34,842 nucleotides of DNA, taken from the NCBI GenBank assembly GCA_903835065.1, contig CAILLO010000019.1, forward strand, positions 1 to 34,842, in the 5' to 3' direction. The DNA is from an uncultured Eubacteriales bacterium. Its GTDB lineage: Bacteria; Bacillota; Clostridia; Saccharofermentanales; UBA5734. Under the pieces are notes generated by a model. That model worked only from the letters and a program-made list of their open reading frames with translations. It made no database searches and was not told the origin of the DNA. Of this stretch, positions 5,479 through 24,012 are shown one piece after another. Position numbers and translations under genes: made by a program. The first letter of the stretch is position 1, and each line of letters begins with the position of its first letter.

Positions 5479-7452
5479 ATGAATCTGCTTACCGCCGAAC
5501 GCGTCTCCAAGACCTATGCGGACCGCCTGATCCTGCAGGACGTCTCCTTCAGCATCGGCGAGGGCGAGAAGGTCGGCGTGATCGGCGTCAACGGCACGGG
5601 CAAGTCGACGCTGCTCAAGATGATCGCGGGCCGGGAGCCGCTCTCGGGCGGCACGATGACCCGCGCGAAGGACCTGCGCATCGGCTATCTCCCCCAGCAG
5701 CCCGAGTTCCCGCCGTCCGCCACCGTCCTGCAGGCCGTCCTGCACGGCGAGTCCCCGGTGATGCGGCTCATCCGCGAATACGAGGCGGCGGCCGACGCCC
5801 TGTCGGTCCGGCCCGACGACGCCGGGCTGCAGGACCGCCTGATCCGCCTCTCCGTCCGCATGGACGCGGCCGGTGCGTGGAACCTCGACAGCGAGGCGAA
5901 GAGCGTGCTGACCCGCCTCGGAATCGTCGATTTCCGCAAGTCCGTCGACACCCTCTCCGGCGGTCAGAAGAAGCGCGTCGCCCTCGCGTCGGCGCTGGTC
6001 CACCCCGCCGACCTGCTGATCCTGGACGAGCCGACCAACCACATCGACCCGGCGACCGTCGACTGGCTCGAGCAGTACCTCGTCGCGTACAAGGGCGCCC
6101 TGCTCATGGTGACCCACGACCGCTACTTCCTCGAGCGCGTGACCGGGGTGATGCTCGAGATCGACCACCAGCACCTCTTCCGCTACGAAGCCAACTACGA
6201 GCGCTGGCTCGAGCTCAAGGCCGAGCGCGTCGAACGGGAGCAGGCGAGCGAACTCAAGCGGCAGAACCAGCTGCGACGCGAACTCGCCTGGATCCGCCAG
6301 GGGGCGCCGGCGCGCTCCACCAAGCAGCAGGCGCGCATCGACCGCTTCGAGGCCCTGAACGAGCGGGACGCGCCCTCCGAGACCGGGTCCGTGTCGATGT
6401 CCTCCGCCGCCACGCGGCTCGGACGCAAGATCCTCGAACTGGACCGCGTCGGCAAGGGCTTCGAGGGGAGGACCCTCTTCCGCGACTTCTCGTACCGCAT
6501 CGCCCGCCGCGAGCGGCTCGGCCTGATCGGCCCCAACGGCTGCGGCAAGACGACGCTGCTGAACCTGATCGCCGGCCTCCTGCCGCCGGACGACGGCGCC
6601 CGGGAAATCGGCAGCACCGTGCGCCTCGGCTTCTTCACCCAGGAGAACGAACCGATCGACCCGGAACTGCGGGTCATCGACTACATCCGCGCGACCGCCG
6701 AAGTCGTGCGGACCGAGGACGGCGAGCTTTCAGCCGCCCAGATGCTGGAGACGTTCCTGTTCCCGCCGACGCTGCAGCGGACGCACGTCCGCCTGCTGTC
6801 GGGAGGGGAGAAGCGCAGGCTCTTCCTGCTGAAGGTCCTGATGGACGCGCCCAACGTCCTGCTGCTGGACGAGCCGACCAACGACCTCGACATCGTGACG
6901 CTGTCGGTCCTCGAGGAATATCTCGAGGGGTTCCCGGGAGCCGTCGTGGTCGTCTCGCACGACCGCTACTTCCTCGACCGTGTGGTCGAGCGGCTCCTCG
7001 TCTTCGAGCCGGGGCAGGGGATCCGTCAGTACGAGGGGAATTTCCAGGACTACCGCAGGCAGGCGGGGCTGGCCGGATTGGCCGAGGGACAGGCGGACGC
7101 CGCGCAGGGCGAGGCCCGCCCGAACGCGCGGAAGCCGCAGCCGCAGGCGCAGGCTCCTCAGGACGCCCCCCGCAACCGCGCGTCGCGGACGGACCCGAAC
7201 GCCCCGCCGCCCCCGAAGAAGATGAAGACCGGCGAGCGTATCGAGCTCGGCTCGATCGACGCCCGCATCGCGGACCTGGAGACGCGGCTGGCGCAGCTCC
7301 GGACCGACCTCGAGGCCGCCTCGAGCGACTACCTCCGCCTGCAGGAGCTGACTGCGAAGATGGATGCGCTGATCGCGGAACACGACGGCGCCGTCGAGCG
7401 CTGGGTCTACCTGAACGAACTGGCCGAAAAGGAAGACGAACGGAAGCCGTGA
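5479..7452 (+). CDS. uup: ABC-F family ATPase, Uup-like
   Basis: A 657-residue soluble protein with two ABC domains and no membrane spans. ATG 5479 is chosen because AGGAGGG precedes it; the frame is open further upstream, but that stretch includes the promoter. The first domain has Walker A GVNGTGKST (about 36-44), signature LSGGQKKR (about 158) and LDEPTNHID. The second has GPNGCGKTT (about 351), LSGGEKRR (about 441) and LDEPTNDLD. The interdomain linker is charged and helical (about 240-300). After a Pro/Gln/Ala-rich stretch, a coiled-coil tail (about 585-655) begins KKMKTGERIEL, resembling the C-terminal domain of Uup. ABC-F proteins act on ribosomes. Uup-type members also affect DNA branch processing and precise transposon excision. 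A role in antibiotic protection is less likely given this tail. Confidence 0.9.
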   Translation: MNLLTAERVSKTYADRLILQDVSFSIGEGEKVGVIGVNGTGKSTLLKMIAGREPLSGGTMTRAKDLRIGYLPQQPEFPPSATVLQAVLHGESPVMRLIREYEAAADALSVRPDDAGLQDRLIRLSVRMDAAGAWNLDSEAKSVLTRLGIVDFRKSVDTLSGGQKKRVALASALVHPADLLILDEPTNHIDPATVDWLEQYLVAYKGALLMVTHDRYFLERVTGVMLEIDHQHLFRYEANYERWLELKAERVEREQASELKRQNQLRRELAWIRQGAPARSTKQQARIDRFEALNERDAPSETGSVSMSSAATRLGRKILELDRVGKGFEGRTLFRDFSYRIARRERLGLIGPNGCGKTTLLNLIAGLLPPDDGAREIGSTVRLGFFTQENEPIDPELRVIDYIRATAEVVRTEDGELSAAQMLETFLFPPTLQRTHVRLLSGGEKRRLFLLKVLMDAPNVLLLDEPTNDLDIVTLSVLEEYLEGFPGAVVVVSHDRYFLDRVVERLLVFEPGQGIRQYEGNFQDYRRQAGLAGLAEGQADAAQGEARPNARKPQPQAQAPQDAPRNRASRTDPNAPPPPKKMKTGERIELGSIDARIADLETRLAQLRTDLEAASSDYLRLQELTAKMDALIAEHDGAVERWVYLNELAEKEDERKP

Positions 7453-7489
7453 ACCTCCTCGGCCGTCCGCGCTGCGGCGTCCGGCGCGC

Positions 7490-8473
7490 CTATAGCTTCG
7501 ACAGGATACTCTCCTGCATCGCGATGTGCCGCGCGACCTGCTCTTCGGCGTCGTCGAGATTGTACGAGTGTCCTTCGTATTCGGTCATCATCGTCCCGCG
7601 GAACCCGGACTCGACGACCAGCCCGAGCAGCCGGTCGTAGTCGATCGCCGTCTCGACGAGATTCTCGTCGACATGATAGAACTTTCCGTGGAAATACAGG
7701 GTTCTCCGAAGGACGCTCCGGAACCCGTCGAAGTCGGCGGGACCGAACGACTGATGGCCGAACAGCTGGCTGACCGCGATGTGGTCCCCCTCGCCCGCGT
7801 GCCCCATCGCCTGGACCTCCTGCCACACCTGCTCCTCGGTCTTGCCGACGTGCCGGTTGGCGATCGCGTGTTCGACGGTCTCGCGGTGCGCCCCGCGTCG
7901 TTCGAGATTCTCCTTGAGCGTCGGGCTGGGCCGTTCGATGAAGATGCCGAAGTCCGGTACGAAGCCGAGCCAGGGCGAGTCGAGCTTGTCGAAGGCCTCC
8001 AGGTACTGCTGGATCTTCGCGTCGGAGGGCCGGGAGGGCGCGTGGATCTCGAAGCCGATCCGGATCCCGAAGCGCTCGGCGAACTCGGCCAGGCGAGGAA
8101 GGTAGTCCAGCGGGAGCATCGTCCCGCGCAGATGCTTCGCGCCGATCCGCTGCGCGACCCGGAGGTCGTTCAGGGACTCGCGGAAGATCTCCTCGTCGTC
8201 CATGTCCCGTCCGGTGATCTTGCCCATGTCGACGCCGCCGCCATAGGAGAAGGGCGTCATCCCGTAGCGCTCGTTGAGCTCGAGCAGTCCGCGGACGGTC
8301 TCGGGCCGCGGCACCGGGTACTGGTCGAAGCTCTGGGCTCCGACGATCTCGTACTGGGAGATGCCGAGCTTCCGGAGGAAGGCGAACATGTCCGCGATTC
8401 CATAGCCGGGCCGCTCGTACCAGGGCTGCGTGAAGGAATAGAGGGAGACGCCGAAGTCGATCCGCCGGTCCAT
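7490..8473 (-). CDS. Sugar phosphate isomerase/epimerase-like TIM barrel; candidate C-glycoside deglycosidase alpha subunit
   Basis: A 327-residue AP-endonuclease-2-type TIM barrel starting at ATG 8473. Candidate divalent-metal ligands are Glu142 (RIGFEIH), Asp174 (GFVPDFG), a His in FHGKFYHVDE (about 262-267) and Glu298 (MMTEYEGH). These lie on successive barrel strands, as in C-glycoside deglycosidase alpha subunits such as DfgA, DgpC and CarC-type proteins. The key context is the gene two bases upstream, a DUF6379 protein, the beta subunit of those enzymes. The complexes cleave the carbon-carbon bond of 3''-oxo-C-glycosides, with a metal and a catalytic His, after oxidation of the sugar by a separate oxidoreductase. 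No such oxidoreductase is in this window. The general fold is certain. C-glycoside specificity is inferred, and related 3-keto-O-glycoside lyases are an alternative. Confidence 0.82.
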   Translation of the reverse strand: MDRRIDFGVSLYSFTQPWYERPGYGIADMFAFLRKLGISQYEIVGAQSFDQYPVPRPETVRGLLELNERYGMTPFSYGGGVDMGKITGRDMDDEEIFRESLNDLRVAQRIGAKHLRGTMLPLDYLPRLAEFAERFGIRIGFEIHAPSRPSDAKIQQYLEAFDKLDSPWLGFVPDFGIFIERPSPTLKENLERRGAHRETVEHAIANRHVGKTEEQVWQEVQAMGHAGEGDHIAVSQLFGHQSFGPADFDGFRSVLRRTLYFHGKFYHVDENLVETAIDYDRLLGLVVESGFRGTMMTEYEGHSYNLDDAEEQVARHIAMQESILSKL

Positions 8474-8475
8474 CG

Positions 8476-8925
8476 TCAGACTCCCGCTTTCTCGATCGTG
8501 CGCAGGACCATCGTCTTGCGTGCGGAGCCGTCGATCGTCGCGTAGACGCCCGGCGCGAACTTCATGTAGGGAGACCGGAAGCGCAGGGTCAGGTCGACGT
8601 CGTGCCCGCCTTCCGCGACCGGGCCGAGGAAGCACTCGAGCGTCGCGCGGTCCTTGACGCCCCAGAACTCCGTGTACTGGTCGGACAGCTCGTCGATCGC
8701 GAACTCCTTGCCGTGCAGGGAGAGGATCACGTTGCCGGACGGCACGACCCGGCCGTCGAGCCGCAGTTCGAACTCGGAGATGCAGGAGAGGTGGAGCCCG
8801 CGGTAGTAGTTGAGTCGGACGTCGAGCATCAGGGACTGGTGCTTCGCACCATGGCGGACCAGGCGCAGGCTGTCGTCGCACAGCACGTGGTCGCCGTATC
8901 CGAGAATCATGTACTTCGTCGGCAT
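8476..8925 (-). CDS. DUF6379 protein; candidate C-glycoside deglycosidase beta subunit
   Basis: A 149-residue protein starting at ATG 8925 behind GGAAGGAG. It is predicted all-beta, with alternating strands such as LRLVRHGAKHQSLMLDVRLNYYRGLHLS, rich in charged and aromatic residues. There is no signal peptide. The sequence MILGYGDHVLCDDSLR...GRVVPSGNVILSLHGKEFAIDEL fits the DUF6379 family, the small beta subunit that pairs with a TIM-barrel alpha subunit in bacterial C-glycoside deglycosidases. It is needed for stability of the complex. The alpha gene follows after 2 bases, so the pair is translationally coupled and likely made in equal amounts. The 119-base upstream gap carries a LacI-type operator candidate. 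The family call rests on recognition of sequence pattern and neighbour. Confidence 0.78.
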   Translation of the reverse strand: MPTKYMILGYGDHVLCDDSLRLVRHGAKHQSLMLDVRLNYYRGLHLSCISEFELRLDGRVVPSGNVILSLHGKEFAIDELSDQYTEFWGVKDRATLECFLGPVAEGGHDVDLTLRFRSPYMKFAPGVYATIDGSARKTMVLRTIEKAGV

Positions 8926-9030
8926 GGTGTCGCTCCTTCCGGGCACGGCTCGAAGCGAGCCGGCCTCCACGGGCGGAACCGGCGACCTGCGCCGGGACCA
9001 TGCCCATTCTGCGCCGGGTGAGCGTCCCGG

Positions 9031-9042
9031 GGAAGCGGTTTC
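9031..9042 (+). promoter_or_regulatory. Candidate LacI-family operator upstream of the deglycosidase pair
   Basis: GGAAGCGGTTTC is a near-palindrome matching G-N-A-A-N-C-G-N-T-T-N-C, the LacI/CcpA operator pattern. It shares GGAAGCG with the site at 834-847. It lies about 106 bases before the DUF6379 start, between korB and that gene. On the reverse strand a weak promoter (TTCCCC, 17 bases, CAGAAT) would overlap it at the -35, as expected for repression. Confidence 0.4.
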
Positions 9043-9044
9043 AG

Positions 9045-9902
9045 TTACAGAAACGACTCCATCCGCGCACGGAGGGCGTCCGGGTCCGGCGGCACGTCGA
9101 CCAGCGGCGGGCCATCGCGCAGCAGCGCGAGGTGGTCCGGATACGTGGGCTTCGCGACGTCGTAGAAGATCCCGAGGGGGATCCGGTCGCCCCACTCGGA
9201 GGCGCGGCGGTAGGCCGCCTCGCGGTCGGTCGCGTCGTGCGTCTCCTCGAGCGGGTAGACGCGCTGGCCGTACCACGGGAACGTATTGACCTTGTTGAAG
9301 CTGACGCAGGGCTGCAGGATGTCGACGAGCGCATAGCCGCGGTGGCGGATCGCGGCCGTCATGATGCGCGTCAGCATCGGTCTGTCGGCGCAGTAGGCGC
9401 GCGCCACGAACCCGCACCCGAGGCTCAGCGCCACGAGCAGGGGGTTCATCGGCTGGTTGGCGCTGCCGTGCGTCTGCACCGCCGTGACCTGCCCCTCCGC
9501 GGTCGTGGGCGAGGCCTGCCCCTTCGTGAGGCCGTAGATCTGGTTGTCGTGGACGAAGTGGGTGATGTCGACGTTGCGTCGGATGTTGTGCAGGAAGTGG
9601 TTGCCGCCTTCGCCGTAGGAGTCGCCGTCGCCCGTGTCGACGATCACGGTGAGCTTCGGGTTGACGAGCTTCGCGGCGACCGCGGGCGGGAGGGAACGGC
9701 CGTGCAGGCCGCAGAAGGCGTTCGCGCCGATGTACTGCGGCGTCTTGGCCGCCTGCCCGATGCCGCCGACCACGAGCACGTCGTGCGGGGCGAGGCCCAG
9801 TCCGTCGAGCGTCTCCTTCAAGGCGGCCAGAATCGCGAAGTCTCCGCAGCCGGGGCACCAGGCGGTCTCGTAGGTCGGGAACCCGTTCACCGTCTCACTC
9901 AT
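9045..9902 (-). CDS. korB: 2-oxoacid:ferredoxin oxidoreductase, beta subunit
   Basis: A 285-residue protein with the thiamine pyrophosphate domain of two-subunit 2-oxoacid:ferredoxin oxidoreductases. CPGCGDF at residues 16-22 is the conserved N-terminal motif. GDGDSYGEGGNHF (about 91-103) and DNQIYGLTKGQ (about 119-129) form the Mg-TPP site. This subunit catalyses decarboxylation of a 2-oxoacid to acyl-CoA and passes electrons to ferredoxin. ATG 9902 overlaps the end of korA by 8 bases (alpha stop TGA at 9897-9895), indicating coupled translation. Whether the substrate is 2-oxoglutarate, pyruvate or a branched-chain acid cannot be decided from motifs. The length and two-gene form favour the KorAB type. 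No separate ferredoxin-like subunit is adjacent. Confidence 0.92.
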   Translation of the reverse strand: MSETVNGFPTYETAWCPGCGDFAILAALKETLDGLGLAPHDVLVVGGIGQAAKTPQYIGANAFCGLHGRSLPPAVAAKLVNPKLTVIVDTGDGDSYGEGGNHFLHNIRRNVDITHFVHDNQIYGLTKGQASPTTAEGQVTAVQTHGSANQPMNPLLVALSLGCGFVARAYCADRPMLTRIMTAAIRHRGYALVDILQPCVSFNKVNTFPWYGQRVYPLEETHDATDREAAYRRASEWGDRIPLGIFYDVAKPTYPDHLALLRDGPPLVDVPPDPDALRARMESFL

Positions 9903-11622
9903 CTCCGCCCTCCAGCCTTTCCGCGATCCACTCGCCGCTCAGGGGCCGTCCGTCGTACTTCAGCAGCTTCCGGTCGCACACGAGACCGGTCGTCTCGCGC
10001 ACGAGCGCCGCGAACTGCCCCGTCGCGTTCTGTTCCACGTCCACGAGAGACTTCGCCTGCGCGAAGCGGCTCAGCAGCTCCTTCTGCGGCAGGGGCCACA
10101 CGTCGCCGAAGGCGAGCGCGGCGTAGCGCGGCGCCGGGGCGTCCGGCCCGCGGGGCGCGTCCTTCTGCCGCGCGAGGCGCGCCAGCGCGTCGACGACCGG
10201 CTCGCGGGTCGAGCCCCAGCACAGCAGAAGGATATCGTAGTCCGGGTCGCCGAGGAATTCGGGCTCCTCGAGGAACGCGGCCAGTCCCTCCTCCTTGCGC
10301 ATGCGCTTGCGGGTCATCGCGACGCGGTCCTCCGCCGACTCGGTGATCCGCCCGTATTCGTCGTGTTCGTCGCTGTCGACGCACACGCGGACGCCCGGCG
10401 TCCCGGGGACCCGGCGCGGGGAGATCCCGTCCTCGGTCAGGGCATAGGTGCGGAATCCGCCGGTCTCGTCGGGCGTCCCGAAGTGCCGGTCGACGACGAT
10501 TCCGTCCACGTCGAAGGGCGGCACCGTGACGGTCGTGTCGGCGAGGAACTGGTCGCCGAGGAGGATCACGGGAATGCGGAAGCGGTCGGCGAGGTCGAAG
10601 GCGCGGACCGTCTGGCGGAAGGCGTCGGCCGGCGAACGGAGGGAAACCACGAGGCGCGGGAACTCGCCGTGGGAGGCCGACACGACGAAGCGCAGGTCGC
10701 CCTGCTCGGTGCGCGTCGGGAAGCCCGTGACCGGCCCGGGGCGCTGGATGTCGGCGACGACGAGCGGCACCTCGAGCATGCCGGCGAGTCCGAGCGCCTC
10801 GACCATGAGGCAGAAGCCGCCGCCGGAAGTGCCGGTCATGGCCCGCACGCCGGCGTAGGAGGCGCCCACGGCCATGTTGATCGCGGCGATCTCGTCCTCG
10901 GCCTGCTCCACGAGGATCCGGCCGGAATCCATCCAGCCCGCCAGCGCGTTCATGATGCTGGTCGAAGGGGTCATCGGGTAGGCGGAGTAGAACCGGCAGC
11001 CCGCCGCGAGGGCTCCGAGCGCAACCGCCTCGTTGCCGTTGACCAGGATACGACCCTTCGGGTCGACGCAGCAGGGCGCGTCGCGGTGGACCGGCGCGAG
11101 CGCGGCGCCGGCTTGCAGCGCGGAGACGTTCTTCTCGGCGATCTCGGGCGGGAAGTGGCCGGCGAGGATCGGGGCGAGACCCTCCAGCGGAAGGCCGAGG
11201 CTGGCGAGCAGGGCACCGAGCGCCACGGTGCCTTCGGTCTTCGGGGACCCGCTGGCCGTGGCGGTCTCCTTCAGCGGGAGGCGATGGACGCGCGCATCGC
11301 CGGCCGCGGAGAGAGGCAGGGCGACGGCCGCGTCGACGAGCAGCAGGCCGTCGGGGGCGAGGTCGCCGAGGTGGAGCTCCACGGTGGCGGCGTCGAGCGC
11401 GATCACGGCATCGGACCCCTTCGAGGGGGAGTGAAGCGGCGACGTGCCGAAGAGCGTCTGGTTGAAGTTGTGCCCTCCGCGGACGCGCGACATGTAGTCG
11501 CGCGTCGTGAAGGTCCAGTAGCCGATCCGCTGCAGGTGCTTCTCGAGGACCGCCGTGAGGGAGTCCATTCCCTGTCCGGCGGAGCCTCCGATCAGAATGG
11601 CGAGACGGTCCGGTCGTTCCAT
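9895..11622 (-). CDS. korA: 2-oxoacid:ferredoxin oxidoreductase, fused gamma-alpha subunit
   Basis: A 575-residue protein starting at ATG 11622 behind GGGAGGTG. Residues 1 to about 190 form the gamma domain (GGSAGQGMDS, then YMSRVRGGHN, for coenzyme A handling). From about 195 the alpha domain begins with GNEAVALGALAAGCRFYSAYPMTPST. It contains EDEIAAINMAVGASYAG and TGTSGGGFCLM, the pyrimidine-binding part for thiamine pyrophosphate. The C-terminal domain includes LLCWGSTREPVVDAL. The fused layout is that of KorA-type enzymes of anaerobes, in cytoplasmic low-potential electron metabolism. korB overlaps the 3' end. The gene diverges from the sensor kinase with a 149-base intergenic region that carries back-to-back extended -10 elements. 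Confidence 0.92.
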   Translation of the reverse strand: MERPDRLAILIGGSAGQGMDSLTAVLEKHLQRIGYWTFTTRDYMSRVRGGHNFNQTLFGTSPLHSPSKGSDAVIALDAATVELHLGDLAPDGLLLVDAAVALPLSAAGDARVHRLPLKETATASGSPKTEGTVALGALLASLGLPLEGLAPILAGHFPPEIAEKNVSALQAGAALAPVHRDAPCCVDPKGRILVNGNEAVALGALAAGCRFYSAYPMTPSTSIMNALAGWMDSGRILVEQAEDEIAAINMAVGASYAGVRAMTGTSGGGFCLMVEALGLAGMLEVPLVVADIQRPGPVTGFPTRTEQGDLRFVVSASHGEFPRLVVSLRSPADAFRQTVRAFDLADRFRIPVILLGDQFLADTTVTVPPFDVDGIVVDRHFGTPDETGGFRTYALTEDGISPRRVPGTPGVRVCVDSDEHDEYGRITESAEDRVAMTRKRMRKEEGLAAFLEEPEFLGDPDYDILLLCWGSTREPVVDALARLARQKDAPRGPDAPAPRYAALAFGDVWPLPQKELLSRFAQAKSLVDVEQNATGQFAALVRETTGLVCDRKLLKYDGRPLSGEWIAERLEGGDE

Positions 11623-21504: not shown

Positions 21505-22004
21505 TTCGGCTCGTTTCCGTCCGTCGTGGCCGTGGTCGGGGCGCTCTGGGGCTGCGTGGCCACGGGCTGCGCGGCCTGGGGCTGCGTCGTCTGGGGCTGG
21601 TTCACCTGGATGTTCTGGGGCTGGGTCGGCGGCACGGCCTGGGGGACATCGTTCCGCGTGACCTGGGTCCGCTCGGTCTGCTGGGTGGAGCCGCCCATGA
21701 TCTTGAGGACGCCGAGCGCGATCAGGCCGACGACGACGAGGGCGATCAGGGTCGCGGGTTCGAGAACGGAGCCGGAGGTCGAAGCTTTCGGGAAGATGCC
21801 TTCGAAGAGGCCGACGAAGGGCTGCGTGACCGCATAGAGCGCCTTCACGAAGCCGTTGGAGCCGCTGGCGCCGAACAGCTTGAAGACGAGCCGGAAGGCG
21901 AAGACGATTTCCACGAAGCTGAACAGGACGGCGACGATCCGCCTTCCGAGGCGTCCTTCGGAACGGGAATCGCGGGTTTCGGTCTTTTTCGAGATCGGAT
22001 CCAT
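21501..22004 (-). CDS. YggT-family membrane protein with Gln/Pro/Thr-rich tail
   Basis: A 167-residue protein from ATG 22004 behind GGAGGTACAGAC. The YggT core occupies about 20-105. A first span (IVAVLFSFVEIVFAFRLVFKL) leads into FGASGSNGFVKALYAVTQPFVGLFEGIFP. A second span is ATLIALVVVGLIALGVLKI. The last 60 residues are low-complexity, built from repeated Q-P-T-A units (QPQNIQVNQPQTTQPQAAQP), which is unusual for YggT proteins and is probably a disordered cytoplasmic or surface tail. YggT homologues are linked to cell division and osmotic tolerance. It is first in the stress run and has a palindrome 31 bases upstream. Confidence 0.85.
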   Translation of the reverse strand: MDPISKKTETRDSRSEGRLGRRIVAVLFSFVEIVFAFRLVFKLFGASGSNGFVKALYAVTQPFVGLFEGIFPKASTSGSVLEPATLIALVVVGLIALGVLKIMGGSTQQTERTQVTRNDVPQAVPPTQPQNIQVNQPQTTQPQAAQPVATQPQSAPTTATTDGNEPK

Positions 22005-22034
22005 GTCTGTACCTCCAATGGATTGGCGACCACA

Positions 22035-22056
22035 CCTTTCCGGAATTCCGGAAAGG
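22035..22056. promoter_or_regulatory. Perfect 22-bp palindrome upstream of the yggT-csbD run
   Basis: CCTTTCCGGAA (22035-22045) is followed at once by its exact reverse complement (22046-22056). It lies 31-52 bases before the yggT start. It may be an operator for a dimeric regulator, or a leader hairpin with no loop to spare. No T-run follows on either strand, so it is not a terminator. Confidence 0.6.
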
Positions 22057-22149
22057 CGTCTGCGCTGGAAATAGAATGAAACATGCGAAGCGGGTCATCG
22101 AAGGTCAATGAGAAAGAGTCTCATTGCAAACACATTGTATCACAAATTG

Positions 22150-22178
22150 TTGCATATGTATACTCAATGTCGTACAAT
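22150..22178 (+). promoter_or_regulatory. Promoter of the first antitoxin-type gene
   Basis: TTGCAT (22150-22155), 17 bases, TACAAT (22173-22178), in an AT-rich stretch unlike the flanks. The inverted repeat TTGT-ATC-ACAA at 22135-22145 just upstream, and the palindromes CATATG and GTATAC in the spacer, are possible autoregulatory operators. Confidence 0.65.
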
Positions 22179-22196
22179 GCTCTTAGAGGTGAAGAC

Positions 22197-22460
22197 ATGA
22201 CGAAAACGGACATGCTGCATATACGGATCGAACATGAAACGAAGCTGCGCGTCGAGAAGACGTTGCGGATTCTGGGACTTTCCGTCGCGGACGCCGTCAA
22301 CATCTTCCTGAGCCAGATCGAACTCAATAGGGGAATCCCGTTCGACGTGCGCCGGCCTCGACCGAAGGACGAACTGCTCGCCGCCGCCGCGGAAGCCCGC
22401 CGTCTGGGCGTGGAGGACGTGGGGCTGATCCACGTCGAAGCGCTCCTGAAGGACCTGTAG
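22197..22460 (+). CDS. RelB/DinJ-family antitoxin, no adjacent toxin
   Basis: An 87-residue protein from ATG 22197 behind AGAGGTGAAG. The N-terminus TDMLHIRIEHETKLRVEKTL gives the beta strand and first helix of a ribbon-helix-helix DNA-binding domain. LGLSVADAVNIFLSQIELNRGIPFDVRRP is the RelB/DinJ hallmark. Such antitoxins repress their own promoter and neutralise a RelE-type ribonuclease encoded directly downstream. Here the next 95 bases are empty and the following gene is ytxH-like, so it is an orphan, perhaps acting only as a regulator. A paralogue at 23702 shares about half of its residues. Confidence 0.88.
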   Translation: MTKTDMLHIRIEHETKLRVEKTLRILGLSVADAVNIFLSQIELNRGIPFDVRRPRPKDELLAAAAEARRLGVEDVGLIHVEALLKDL

Positions 22461-22555
22461 GAGCTTGTTCCGGAAGCGCTGATTCACAGAGAAATCCGTT
22501 GCCGTCGCCGCCATCCGGCGACATGTCCGGCGATCCGCCGAAGAGGAGGTCCACC

Positions 22556-22831
22556 ATGTTCCAGGAATACAGAGACGTCATGAACGGCACGTACCGGCGC
22601 CGCGCATCGCGCAATACCCTGATCGGCGCCCTGGCCGGTCTGCTGGCGGGAGCCGCGGCGGGAATCCTGCTCGCGCCCAAGTCGGGCAAGGAGACCCGTG
22701 AGGACATCGCGACCGGGGTGAAGAAAGGCGCAGCGAAGGTCAAGGAAGTCGTCGGGGATGCGGCCGAAGCGGCCAAGGAGAAGGTGGAAGGGAAGACGCC
22801 GCAGCCAGAAAAGGGCGCCAGGAAGGAATGA
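22556..22831 (+). CDS. YtxH-domain protein
   Basis: A 91-residue protein from ATG 22556 behind GAGGAGG. One membrane span (LIGALAGLLAGAAAGILLAPKSGKETRE) has the typical YtxH Gly/Ala-rich stretch ending in LLAPKSGKETR. It is followed by an Ala/Lys/Glu-rich helix (KKGAAKVKEVVGDAAEAAKEKVEG) like late-embryogenesis-type repeats. YtxH is a general stress protein in Bacillus of unknown mechanism. The DUF948-like gene starts 9 bases downstream, a pairing seen in Bacillota. Confidence 0.88.
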   Translation: MFQEYRDVMNGTYRRRASRNTLIGALAGLLAGAAAGILLAPKSGKETREDIATGVKKGAAKVKEVVGDAAEAAKEKVEGKTPQPEKGARKE

Positions 22832-22840
22832 GGCGAGGCC

Positions 22841-23242
22841 ATGCTGATCACGATTGATCTGATGCAACTCCTCACCGCCCTCCTCATCCTCGTGGGCCTC
22901 GCGGTCCTCGTCGCCTTCTTCGTCGTGCTGCTCCGCCTGCTCGGACTGCTGAAGCGGGCGAACGGACTCGTGAAGGACACTTCGGTCGTGATGGCTTCCG
23001 CCAGCCGATCCGTCCCTCCCATCCTCAAGGATGCGGAAGTGATCTGCAGTTCGGCCCGCAGCGGCGTGGAGGCGATCGGCGGGGCGGCGAGCAGCCTCGG
23101 CGAGGGTGTGTCTTCCATCTTCGGAGCCGACGATTCTTCCACGGGCGGCACGGTGGAGACGATCTTCGGCATCATCGACCGCGTTCTCGCGATCATCGGC
23201 CTCTTCACGGACGGCAAGAAGAAGCGCCCGCGGAAACGCTGA
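22841..23242 (+). CDS. DUF948-like membrane-anchored protein
   Basis: A 133-residue protein from ATG 22841. One N-terminal span (LLTALLILVGLAVLVAFFVVLLRLLGLL) is followed by a helical region (LKRANGLVKDTSVVMASASRSVPPILKDAE), as in DUF948 proteins that accompany YtxH. The C-terminal part is Ser/Gly-rich with a second weakly hydrophobic segment (IFGIIDRVLAIIGLF) and ends in a basic KKKRPRKR tail. It has a short GAGGCGAGGCC ribosome site and is probably cotranscribed with the ytxH-like gene. A strong terminator follows. Confidence 0.75.
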   Translation: MLITIDLMQLLTALLILVGLAVLVAFFVVLLRLLGLLKRANGLVKDTSVVMASASRSVPPILKDAEVICSSARSGVEAIGGAASSLGEGVSSIFGADDSSTGGTVETIFGIIDRVLAIIGLFTDGKKKRPRKR

Positions 23243-23265
23243 CGCAGCACGAAGGCCGACATGAA

Positions 23266-23301
23266 AAGAGGGCGCACCGATCGCGATCGGCGCGCCCTCT
23301 T
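23266..23301 (+). terminator. Strong hairpin terminator after the ytxH/DUF948 pair
   Basis: An 18-bp stem (AAGAGGGCGC, one A-C mismatch, CCGATCG) is directly followed by its complement ending GCGCCCTCTT. The tail TCTTCCT is only modestly T-rich. On the reverse strand the leading AAAAGAGG gives a CCTCTTTTC tail, so it may also work against the minus-strand 33-residue gene. Confidence 0.75.
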
Positions 23302-23342
23302 CCTATGCGGGGCGCGCGTTCAATGTCGGAGCCCCGCGAACG

Positions 23343-23444
23343 CTAGACGATCTTCCTGCCTTTCAATGGATTGACTATGATGACGATGAGTGCTATCAAA
23401 AGGAGGACAATAATCAATCCTCCTCCGGTGATCGTCCACAACAT
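23343..23444 (-). CDS. 33-residue single-span membrane peptide
   Basis: The reverse strand from ATG 23444 to TAG 23345-23343 encodes MLWTITGGGLIIVLLLIALI, then VIIVNPLKGRKIV. One long hydrophobic span is followed by a basic end, and AAAGGAAG is correctly placed upstream. There is no known family. Its hydrophobic and basic layout resembles small stress peptides, type I toxin peptides, or subunit-like peptides such as KdpF. It lies between two orphan antitoxin genes and opposite in direction to them. Coding is probable but not certain. Confidence 0.55.
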   Translation of the reverse strand: MLWTITGGGLIIVLLLIALIVIIVNPLKGRKIV

Positions 23445-23620
23445 GAAGGTCTTCCTTTCTTCCGATGGCCATTCTGGGATGCGTTCGGTCTTCTGCTGCA
23501 GGTCGAAGACACCGCCGTTCCGATGGCCGGAACGACTCCCTCAGCGGACCGCGAATGGAGCATGCGGAGCTGGAATTGCATAATAAAAGCAGAATCAAAT
23601 ACGTTGCATGCACTTAGTAT

Positions 23621-23639
23621 CACTTTTGTGTTCACTTTT
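23621..23639 (+). repeat. Direct repeat CACTTTT x2 upstream of the second antitoxin promoter
   Basis: CACTTTT occurs at 23621-23627 and 23633-23639, a 12-base period, in an AT-rich region (about 23580-23700). It is a possible operator for a ribbon-helix-helix protein; otherwise 23445-23649 shows no gene. Confidence 0.35.
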
Positions 23640-23649
23640 ATACACGGCG

Positions 23650-23678
23650 TTGCTATTATTCCGACAATGGGATACAAT
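23650..23678 (+). promoter_or_regulatory. Promoter of the second antitoxin-type gene
   Basis: TTGCTA (23650-23655), 17 bases, TACAAT (23673-23678). Same spacing and identical -10 as the promoter of the paralogue at 22150-22178. Confidence 0.65.
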
Positions 23679-23701
23679 AGCGGGGAGAGGTAGTTGCAAT
23701 C

Positions 23702-23974
23702 ATGAAAACAGATATCCTGCATATCCGAATCGAGCCGGAAAAGAAGAAACGCGTCGAAGTCACGCTGAAGTCCCTCGGACTGACGATGACCGATGCAATC
23801 AATATGTTCCTCAGCCAGGTCGACCTGACGGGGGGGATTCCCTTCGAAGTGCGCCTGCCGAAGGTGAAGCCCGAACTCGTGACGGCGCTGATCGAAGCGC
23901 GACGGATCGGGCTGGTCGGCAAGGAAGGCAAGGAATTCTCGAGCGCCGATGAAGGGCTGAAAGAGGAACTCTGA
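23702..23974 (+). CDS. RelB/DinJ-family antitoxin paralogue, no adjacent toxin
   Basis: A 90-residue protein from ATG 23702 behind GGGGAGAGG. It has the same layout as the gene at 22197: TDILHIRIEPEKKKRVEVTL, then LGLTMTDAINMFLSQVDLTGGIPFEVRLP. The C-terminal region KPELVTALIEARRIGLVGKEGKEF would normally wrap a RelE toxin. The coding region ends at 23974 and a terminator follows, so no toxin is cotranscribed. The two paralogues flank the ytxH/DUF948 genes. Confidence 0.88.
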   Translation: MKTDILHIRIEPEKKKRVEVTLKSLGLTMTDAINMFLSQVDLTGGIPFEVRLPKVKPELVTALIEARRIGLVGKEGKEFSSADEGLKEEL

Positions 23975-24012
23975 CCGAATCCGTCCGACGGATCGAATCG
24001 ACGGCTCCGCAA

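Follow-up and report, generated by a model that had tools for sequence, protein, structure and literature searches.

The gene pair and its neighbourhood

In the window, i.e., the whole analysed stretch of 34,842 nucleotides from an uncultured Eubacteriales bacterium, two genes were found side by side on the minus strand. The beta subunit gene (CGDB / DUF6379; 8476..8925) encodes 149 aa, of which Tyr41 is the counterpart of Tyr39beta of PuCGE. The alpha subunit gene (7490..8473) encodes 327 aa, a xylose-isomerase-like TIM barrel with E142, D174, H262, K264, and E298 as metal residues and H144 and E300 as catalytic residues. Only two bases separate the beta stop (8476-8478) from the alpha ATG (8473). 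A sequence-only reading of this DNA had placed a DUF6379-type gene and a metal-site TIM-barrel gene two bases apart, and both were recovered at these coordinates and on this strand.

The beta start used here is backed by the beta relatives, which begin alike (MPT or MST, then ..M.L), and the alpha start by the alpha alignments. The ORF lists give longer frames for both genes because the first possible start was taken. Both frames are intact, and all catalytic residues are present. As read from the sequence, a Shine-Dalgarno-like AAGGAG (8933..8938, minus strand) lies 7 nt before the beta ATG, and a Shine-Dalgarno-like GGGAG (8481..8485, minus strand) lies before the alpha ATG, within the end of the beta gene. 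The position of the latter suggests translational coupling of alpha to beta. Downstream of alpha, a weak terminator-like hairpin (7442..7458, minus strand) overlaps the end of an ABC-F gene on the other strand.

The genes at 9045-11622 encode a korAB-type 2-oxoacid:ferredoxin oxidoreductase (POR_N, POR, TPP_enzyme_C, and PFO_beta_C domains). The korAB neighbours described in the sequence-only reading were therefore confirmed, and the location of the pair behind korAB, called unusual there, looks incidental. A survey of the neighbours of C-glycoside deglycosidase (CGD) loci, limited to those 56 of 80 that span at least 12 kb, detected KorB at no locus (0/56). When the window korB was compared with six relatives, one of them of the same genus, no match reached E <= 1e-60. 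The korAB neighbour is thus probably incidental, and a functional link to the pair was not supported by these two results.

In the gap that separates the korB stop from the beta start, a weak LacI/CcpA-like operator was found, TGAAACCGCTTCCC (9030..9043, minus strand), with one mismatch to a LacI/CcpA-like consensus. The LacI-type site reported earlier for this gap is hence present, and it is suggestive only, since 0.22 matches with one mismatch are expected by chance in the window. No regulator was identified for this site. A LacI-like regulon was also rejected: at <=1 mismatch, the genome gave 19 hits versus 5 in the reversed control, and only two were near CGD genes, i.e., the window site and C9:13767. 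Elsewhere in the window, a Spo0A-type gene was observed. The G+C content dips to 51-54% at two places in 21750-24000, and among the chunks of the contig the one at 20-25 kb deviates most in its tetranucleotide profile, perhaps because of a foreign insert.

Family membership and active-site residues

In the profile search of 8476-8925 against the beta-subunit family, Pfam PF19906 CGDB was matched with E 2.6e-22 and 79.2 bits, well over the cut-off of 27.6. In the PDB sequence search, the beta subunit matched DgpB (7bvr_B) with E 9e-27. The alpha subunit matched Pfam PF01261 (AP_endonuc_2) with E 3.9e-12, and its best PDB sequence matches were 9m3a_A (E 1.5e-42) and DgpC, 7bvr_A (E 2.7e-42). Matches of this strength lie well outside what chance would give. 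Eight distinct PDB sequences matched alpha at E <= 1e-3, and each was a CGD-type alpha chain. All eight were at most 149 bits, whereas the matches in two related genomes, G001 and G020, reached 318 and 280 bits.

A model of the window alpha was built with 17 relatives (pLDDT 91.8). It was compared with known structures by VIA-align 2, which re-ranked the 1000 chains ranked highest by Foldseek. Rows 1-13 were all CGD alpha chains (Z 38.5-30.0), and the next row had Z 26.5. The top row was DgpC, 7exz_A (Z 38.5, 2.2 Å over 319).

In AgCGD2, the metal ligands are reported as Glu147, Asp179, His269, Lys271, and Glu305, and the catalytic residues as His149 and Glu307 (PMC8563793). By alignment, E147/H149/D179/H269/K271/E305/E307 of AgCGD2 correspond to E142/H144/D174/H262/K264/E298/E300 of the window alpha. 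These seven residues were identical in 108/108 alpha sequences, four of which are PDB chains. The ligands named from the sequence alone, i.e., Glu142, Asp174, an unnumbered His, and Glu298, were right; the His is His262, and Lys264 is also in the site. In the beta subunit, the counterpart of Tyr39beta is Tyr in 132/135 distinct rows (2 gaps, 1 Trp). As reported for PuCGE, Tyr39beta to Phe removed >99% of the C-glycoside activity and lowered the 3-keto-phlorizin activity only 2.4-fold (PMC10628242). Because this Tyr is near-universal in the family, Tyr41 of the window is a kept feature and not a sign of a special pair. The same set of residues would be expected in a CGD that cleaves O-glycosides, since PuCGE is reported to perform both reactions (PMC10628242).

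The window pair is solidly predicted, from sequence and modelled structure, to be a CGD-type alpha/beta pair. The earlier reading as such a pair was borne out by the CGDB match, the PDB matches, the metal ligands, the catalytic His and Glu, and the beta Tyr. The kind of enzyme is known; what is new here is the place of the pair in a clade without a solved member and with natural fusions.

Clade, lineage and the probable oxidoreductase partner

The loci were taken from a genome-contig profile scan, in which a single-sequence query found none and an alignment query did. The best 80 of 159 relatives were used, so that the clade may well be larger than counted here. The alpha tree held 108 sequences, including the window and four PDB chains, from segments in which 240 or more residues were matched, after removal of exact duplicates from 157 alpha hits; 9m3b, 7bvs, and 8qrz are absent from it. 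The window grouped with 12 others (support 1.0), joined next by L051 (support 1.0), giving a clade of at least 14 alpha subunits. Its members come from four phyla, i.e., Bacillota (Bacillus, Lachnospiraceae, Eubacteriaceae, Anaerobium, and a same-genus MAG), Bacteroidota (Paraflavisolibacter), Pseudomonadota (Aestuariicella), and Actinomycetota (Agromyces, Subtercola, Nanchangia, and Bifidobacteriaceae). The identity to the window alpha was 43-51% in the clade and 33-35% in other aligned relatives. The beta subunit follows alpha, with its best matches in loci of this clade. The distribution of the clade across four phyla suggests horizontal transfer.

Of the PDB chains included in the alpha tree, four in number, none fell inside this clade. 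In the literature searched, no study was recognised as treating it, and a text search of that literature for DUF6379 returned no paper. As far as checked, the clade has no characterised member; this is firm for the PDB only, with the PurBC, MiCGD, and AgCGD1 sequences outside the comparison.

Alpha and beta in one open frame were found in seven distinct proteins among the loci. Four are in the clade of the window (L050, two in L072, and L074; L050 and L070 have identical frames), and the others are in L060, L142, and the own genome (C9:20343-21755, alpha first). These natural fusions support a physical pair. Both orders, alpha-beta and beta-alpha, were observed within one genus, i.e., at C9:20343-21755 and at contig C189 of G001 (L060). 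The same-genus fusion L050 was modelled (pLDDT 88.3, pTM 0.87). Against the solved fused CGD 8un2_A, the whole chain gave TM 0.50 and rmsd 18 Å over 509 columns. Each domain alone fits CGD chains closely, and the domain placement of 8un2_A was not reproduced.

The genome is a fragmented draft of 2.51 Mb in 82 contigs (98% complete, 3.85% contamination). It encodes seven CGDB (beta) genes and 29 Gfo/Idh/MocA (GFO) genes. CGDB over the cut-off was found in 5/58 close genomes: seven genes in the own genome, 10 in G001, 8 in G008, 5 in G014, and one in G020, which has one more below the cut-off. In a class-wide sample, 7/391 genomes had a CGDB match at E <= 1e-3, six of them over the cut-off, and those besides the own genome and G008 had one CGDB gene each. 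Three genomes of this lineage have 7, 10, and 8 such genes, versus none or one in all others of the 391, so the lineage is unusually rich. The six further CGDB genes of the own genome were observed on C9 (L043-L047) and C25 (L048), beside LacI regulators and GFOs. Their neighbours also include GH43-like and GH35/DUF5597-like genes and MFS transporters, named by eye from the translations, and C25 has a compact LacI-beta-alpha-GFO row. A tRNA-Arg (ccg) was seen near CGD genes in the own genome and G001 (L048:12961-13035, L060:12-86, and L063:2633-2707), possibly an insertion spot.

Of the 29 Gfo/Idh/MocA matches, none is on the window contig, and no GMC oxidase was found anywhere in the own genome, consistent with the earlier statement that the oxidoreductase is not in the window. 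The arrangement of the DgpABC operon, in which a DgpA-type oxidoreductase lies in the same cluster, was not found at the window. A DgpA-like gene lies on contig C9 (C9:18042-19136, minus strand), and its full protein matched DgpA (7xr9) with E 5e-147 and 493 bits. The gene for the helper oxidoreductase thus probably lies at another place in this genome, one of the two options given in the sequence-only reading.

Four GFOs beside clade pairs point to the same gene. C9:18750 was the best own-genome match for 4/7 GFOs tested, i.e., those beside the clade pairs of Bacillus (61%), Anaerobium (68%), Bifidobacteriaceae (53%), and Nanchangia (53%); the GFOs of L067, L069, and L076 matched other genes best. 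Among 58 genomes, proteins at least 77% identical to the C9 DgpA-like protein were found only in G000 (own), G001, and G020, at 86% and 77% in the two relatives. Other full-length matches were <=65%, and two partial ones in G008 were 66 and 70%. These three genomes are also the ones with the alpha type of the window (alpha matches of 48 and 43%, in two of 57 relatives). As two of the three belong to one genus, the co-occurrence represents no more than two independent events. At E <= 1e-60, DgpA-like genes were present in 19/58 genomes, many without CGD, so that GFOs of this type are not confined to the pathway; in G014, which has CGD genes, there was no GFO match at E <= 1e-60. In G001 and G020, the short flanks of the DgpA-like gene (about 1 kb) showed no CGD gene, consistent with an oxidoreductase that acts in trans. 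A detached dgpA together with several dgpBC is reported in Catenibacillus (PMC11170127).

The survey of neighbours used four GFO and two GMC queries, chosen by us. Of the 56 CGD loci surveyed, 13 had neither gene type (0/7 in the clade, 13/49 in the others), so that pairs detached from an oxidoreductase are common in the CGD family. The lack of an adjacent oxidoreductase, stressed in the sequence-only reading, is not unusual, being shared by those 13/49 other loci and by Catenibacillus, as reported (PMC11170127). Within its clade, the window pair is the only one seen in this state. Of the seven clade loci surveyed, two have another GFO type (L067 and L069), and three have GMC oxidases, a type that the own genome lacks.

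A GMC-type FAD oxidase was rejected as partner of the window pair, the own genome having none, and so was a FAD_binding_3 partner, for which the own genome has short, weak matches only (best 27.7 bits). A FAD_binding_3 monooxygenase-like gene was observed near the clade pairs L065, L066, and L071, three of the seven long loci, possibly for the aglycone. Two neighbour types were more frequent in the clade, i.e., FAD_binding_3 (3/7 clade loci vs 1/49 others, p 0.005) and DUF5597/GH35-like (4/7 vs 7/49, p 0.02); these post hoc, uncorrected values come from few related loci and were given no weight.

Proposed function and comparison with known systems

The pair likely acts as a CGD-type 3-keto-glycoside lyase (3-keto-glycoside beta-eliminase), an alpha/beta enzyme with a presumed DgpA-like partner elsewhere in the genome. 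Two other readings of the locus were given very little credence. That the genes are a non-functional or contaminating remnant, on a foreign contig or in decay, is very improbable. The draft is fragmented and partly contaminated, and the korB lacks a close match in six relatives. Against this, PurA on the contig is the single copy of the genome and 89% identical to PurA of G001, a same-genus genome, and five of six contig chunks are within the reference range of tetranucleotide distances; on these grounds, the contig is native to the genome, and a contaminant contig was rejected. The intact frames with complete catalytic residues also argue against decay. Even less probable is that the barrel, together with its small partner, is not a lyase but a conventional epimerase or isomerase of sugars (tagatose-3-epimerase/xylose-isomerase-like). 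The barrel does belong to AP_endonuc_2, a xylose-isomerase-like family, and has a weak NCBIfam match to L-ribulose-5-phosphate 3-epimerase, far below the cut-off. However, in VIA-align 2, CGD alpha chains had Z 30.0-38.5 and every epimerase <= 26.5, and the beta subunit exceeds the cut-off of CGDB. As CGD chains rank above all epimerases, this candidate was rejected.

A weightier alternative concerns the substrate, i.e., that the pair is mainly a 3-keto-O-glycoside lyase of a general non-hydrolytic glycoside pathway, with C-glycosides as a side activity. PuCGE is reported to cleave 3-keto-phlorizin at a rate like that of 3-keto-nothofagin, its authors suggest a generalist role, and O-glycosides are described as far commoner in plants than C-glycosides (PMC10628242). 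The many CGDB and Gfo/Idh/MocA genes of the own genome fit a general glycoside diet. On the other side, the window keeps the beta Tyr, reported as needed for C- and hardly for O-glycoside cleavage; it also keeps a beta subunit, which AtOGE is reported not to need, and has Glu142 where AtOGE is reported to have a His metal ligand (PMC10628242). A natural C-glycoside substrate is somewhat favoured for the window pair, and a mainly O-glycoside one is judged rather unlikely.

In the proposed mechanism of the CGD-type lyase, the DgpA-like oxidoreductase (best candidate C9:18042-19136, minus strand), presumably acting in trans, would oxidise the C3 hydroxyl of the glycoside. The 3-keto sugar would then bind the Mn2+ site of the barrel (Glu142, Asp174, His262, Lys264, and Glu298), with Tyr41 of beta holding the aglycone. 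His144, aided by Glu300, would take the C2 proton, and beta-elimination would break the aglycone bond to give the aglycone and 1,5-anhydro-D-erythro-hex-1-en-3-ulose. The CGD reaction is described with this beta-elimination of the 3-keto glycoside and with the same two products (PMC8563793; PMC10628242). The chemistry is thus that published for homologues; the family, the residues, and the DgpA-like gene were found here, and the activity of the pair itself is inferred from them.

It is also conceivable, and put forward tentatively, that the clade is a separate, horizontally spread group of lyases with its own substrate class, and that in this lineage one stand-alone DgpA-like oxidoreductase serves many pairs (seven beta genes in 2.5 Mb). 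If true, the breakdown of many C- and O-glycosides would start with a common oxidation step and then branch to different specialised lyases. In plant C-glycosides, the sugar is held by very stable bonds. These compounds resist ordinary glycosidases, and to our knowledge few lyases acting on them have been characterised. The clade, found in four phyla, could widen the known substrate range or supply catalysts, and the lineage makes the idea of one oxidoreductase and many lyases directly testable. In reverse, PuCGE is reported to make aryl-C-glycosides (PMC13273386).

Among known systems, DgpBC / PuCGD (PuCGE) of strain PUE (7bvr, 7exz) is like the window pair in its two subunits, barrel length, metal and catalytic residues, and Tyr39beta, with about 27% structural identity between the alpha subunits. 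In our alignment reading, the window has His302 in place of Tyr303alpha of PuCGD, a residue modelled to exclude C6-glycosides (PMC8563793). In strain PUE, dgpA is reported as adjacent (PMC11170127), whereas in the window it is not. DgpB2/C2 of W974-1 (9m3a), the best PDB sequence match of the window alpha, has the same fold (Z 38.1) but lies outside its clade in the alpha tree. AgCGD2 (AgCarB2-C2), CarBC, and PurBC of soil Actinomycetota are two-subunit lyases like the window pair, and AgCGD2 shares its residues; CarBC and PurBC are described with FAD oxidases CarA/PurA (PMC12724307), unlike the own genome, which is without GMC oxidase. The fused CGD of Microbacterium testaceum (8qrz/8un2) is a beta-alpha fusion as in four clade members, whereas the window genes are separate.

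AtOGE and the 3-keto-beta-glucopyranoside-1,2-lyases (8tcd, 8tct) share the chemistry type and barrel fold of the window pair. AtOGE is described as single-subunit with His for one Glu metal ligand (PMC10628242), whereas the window has beta and Glu142, i.e., not the AtOGE type. With the L050 fusion model, the AL1/BT1 lyases ranked far below CGDs, with TMt of about 0.63 (0.62 for 8tcd_D) versus 0.93; such lyases were not among the listed structural rows of the window alpha, which excludes nothing. In genome organisation, Catenibacillus scindens and C. decagia, reported as Lachnospiraceae gut isolates (PMC11170127), differ from the draft genome of about 2.5 Mb studied here in their source, and they are alike in having several dgpBC pairs with dgpA elsewhere in the genome, as described for them (PMC11170127).
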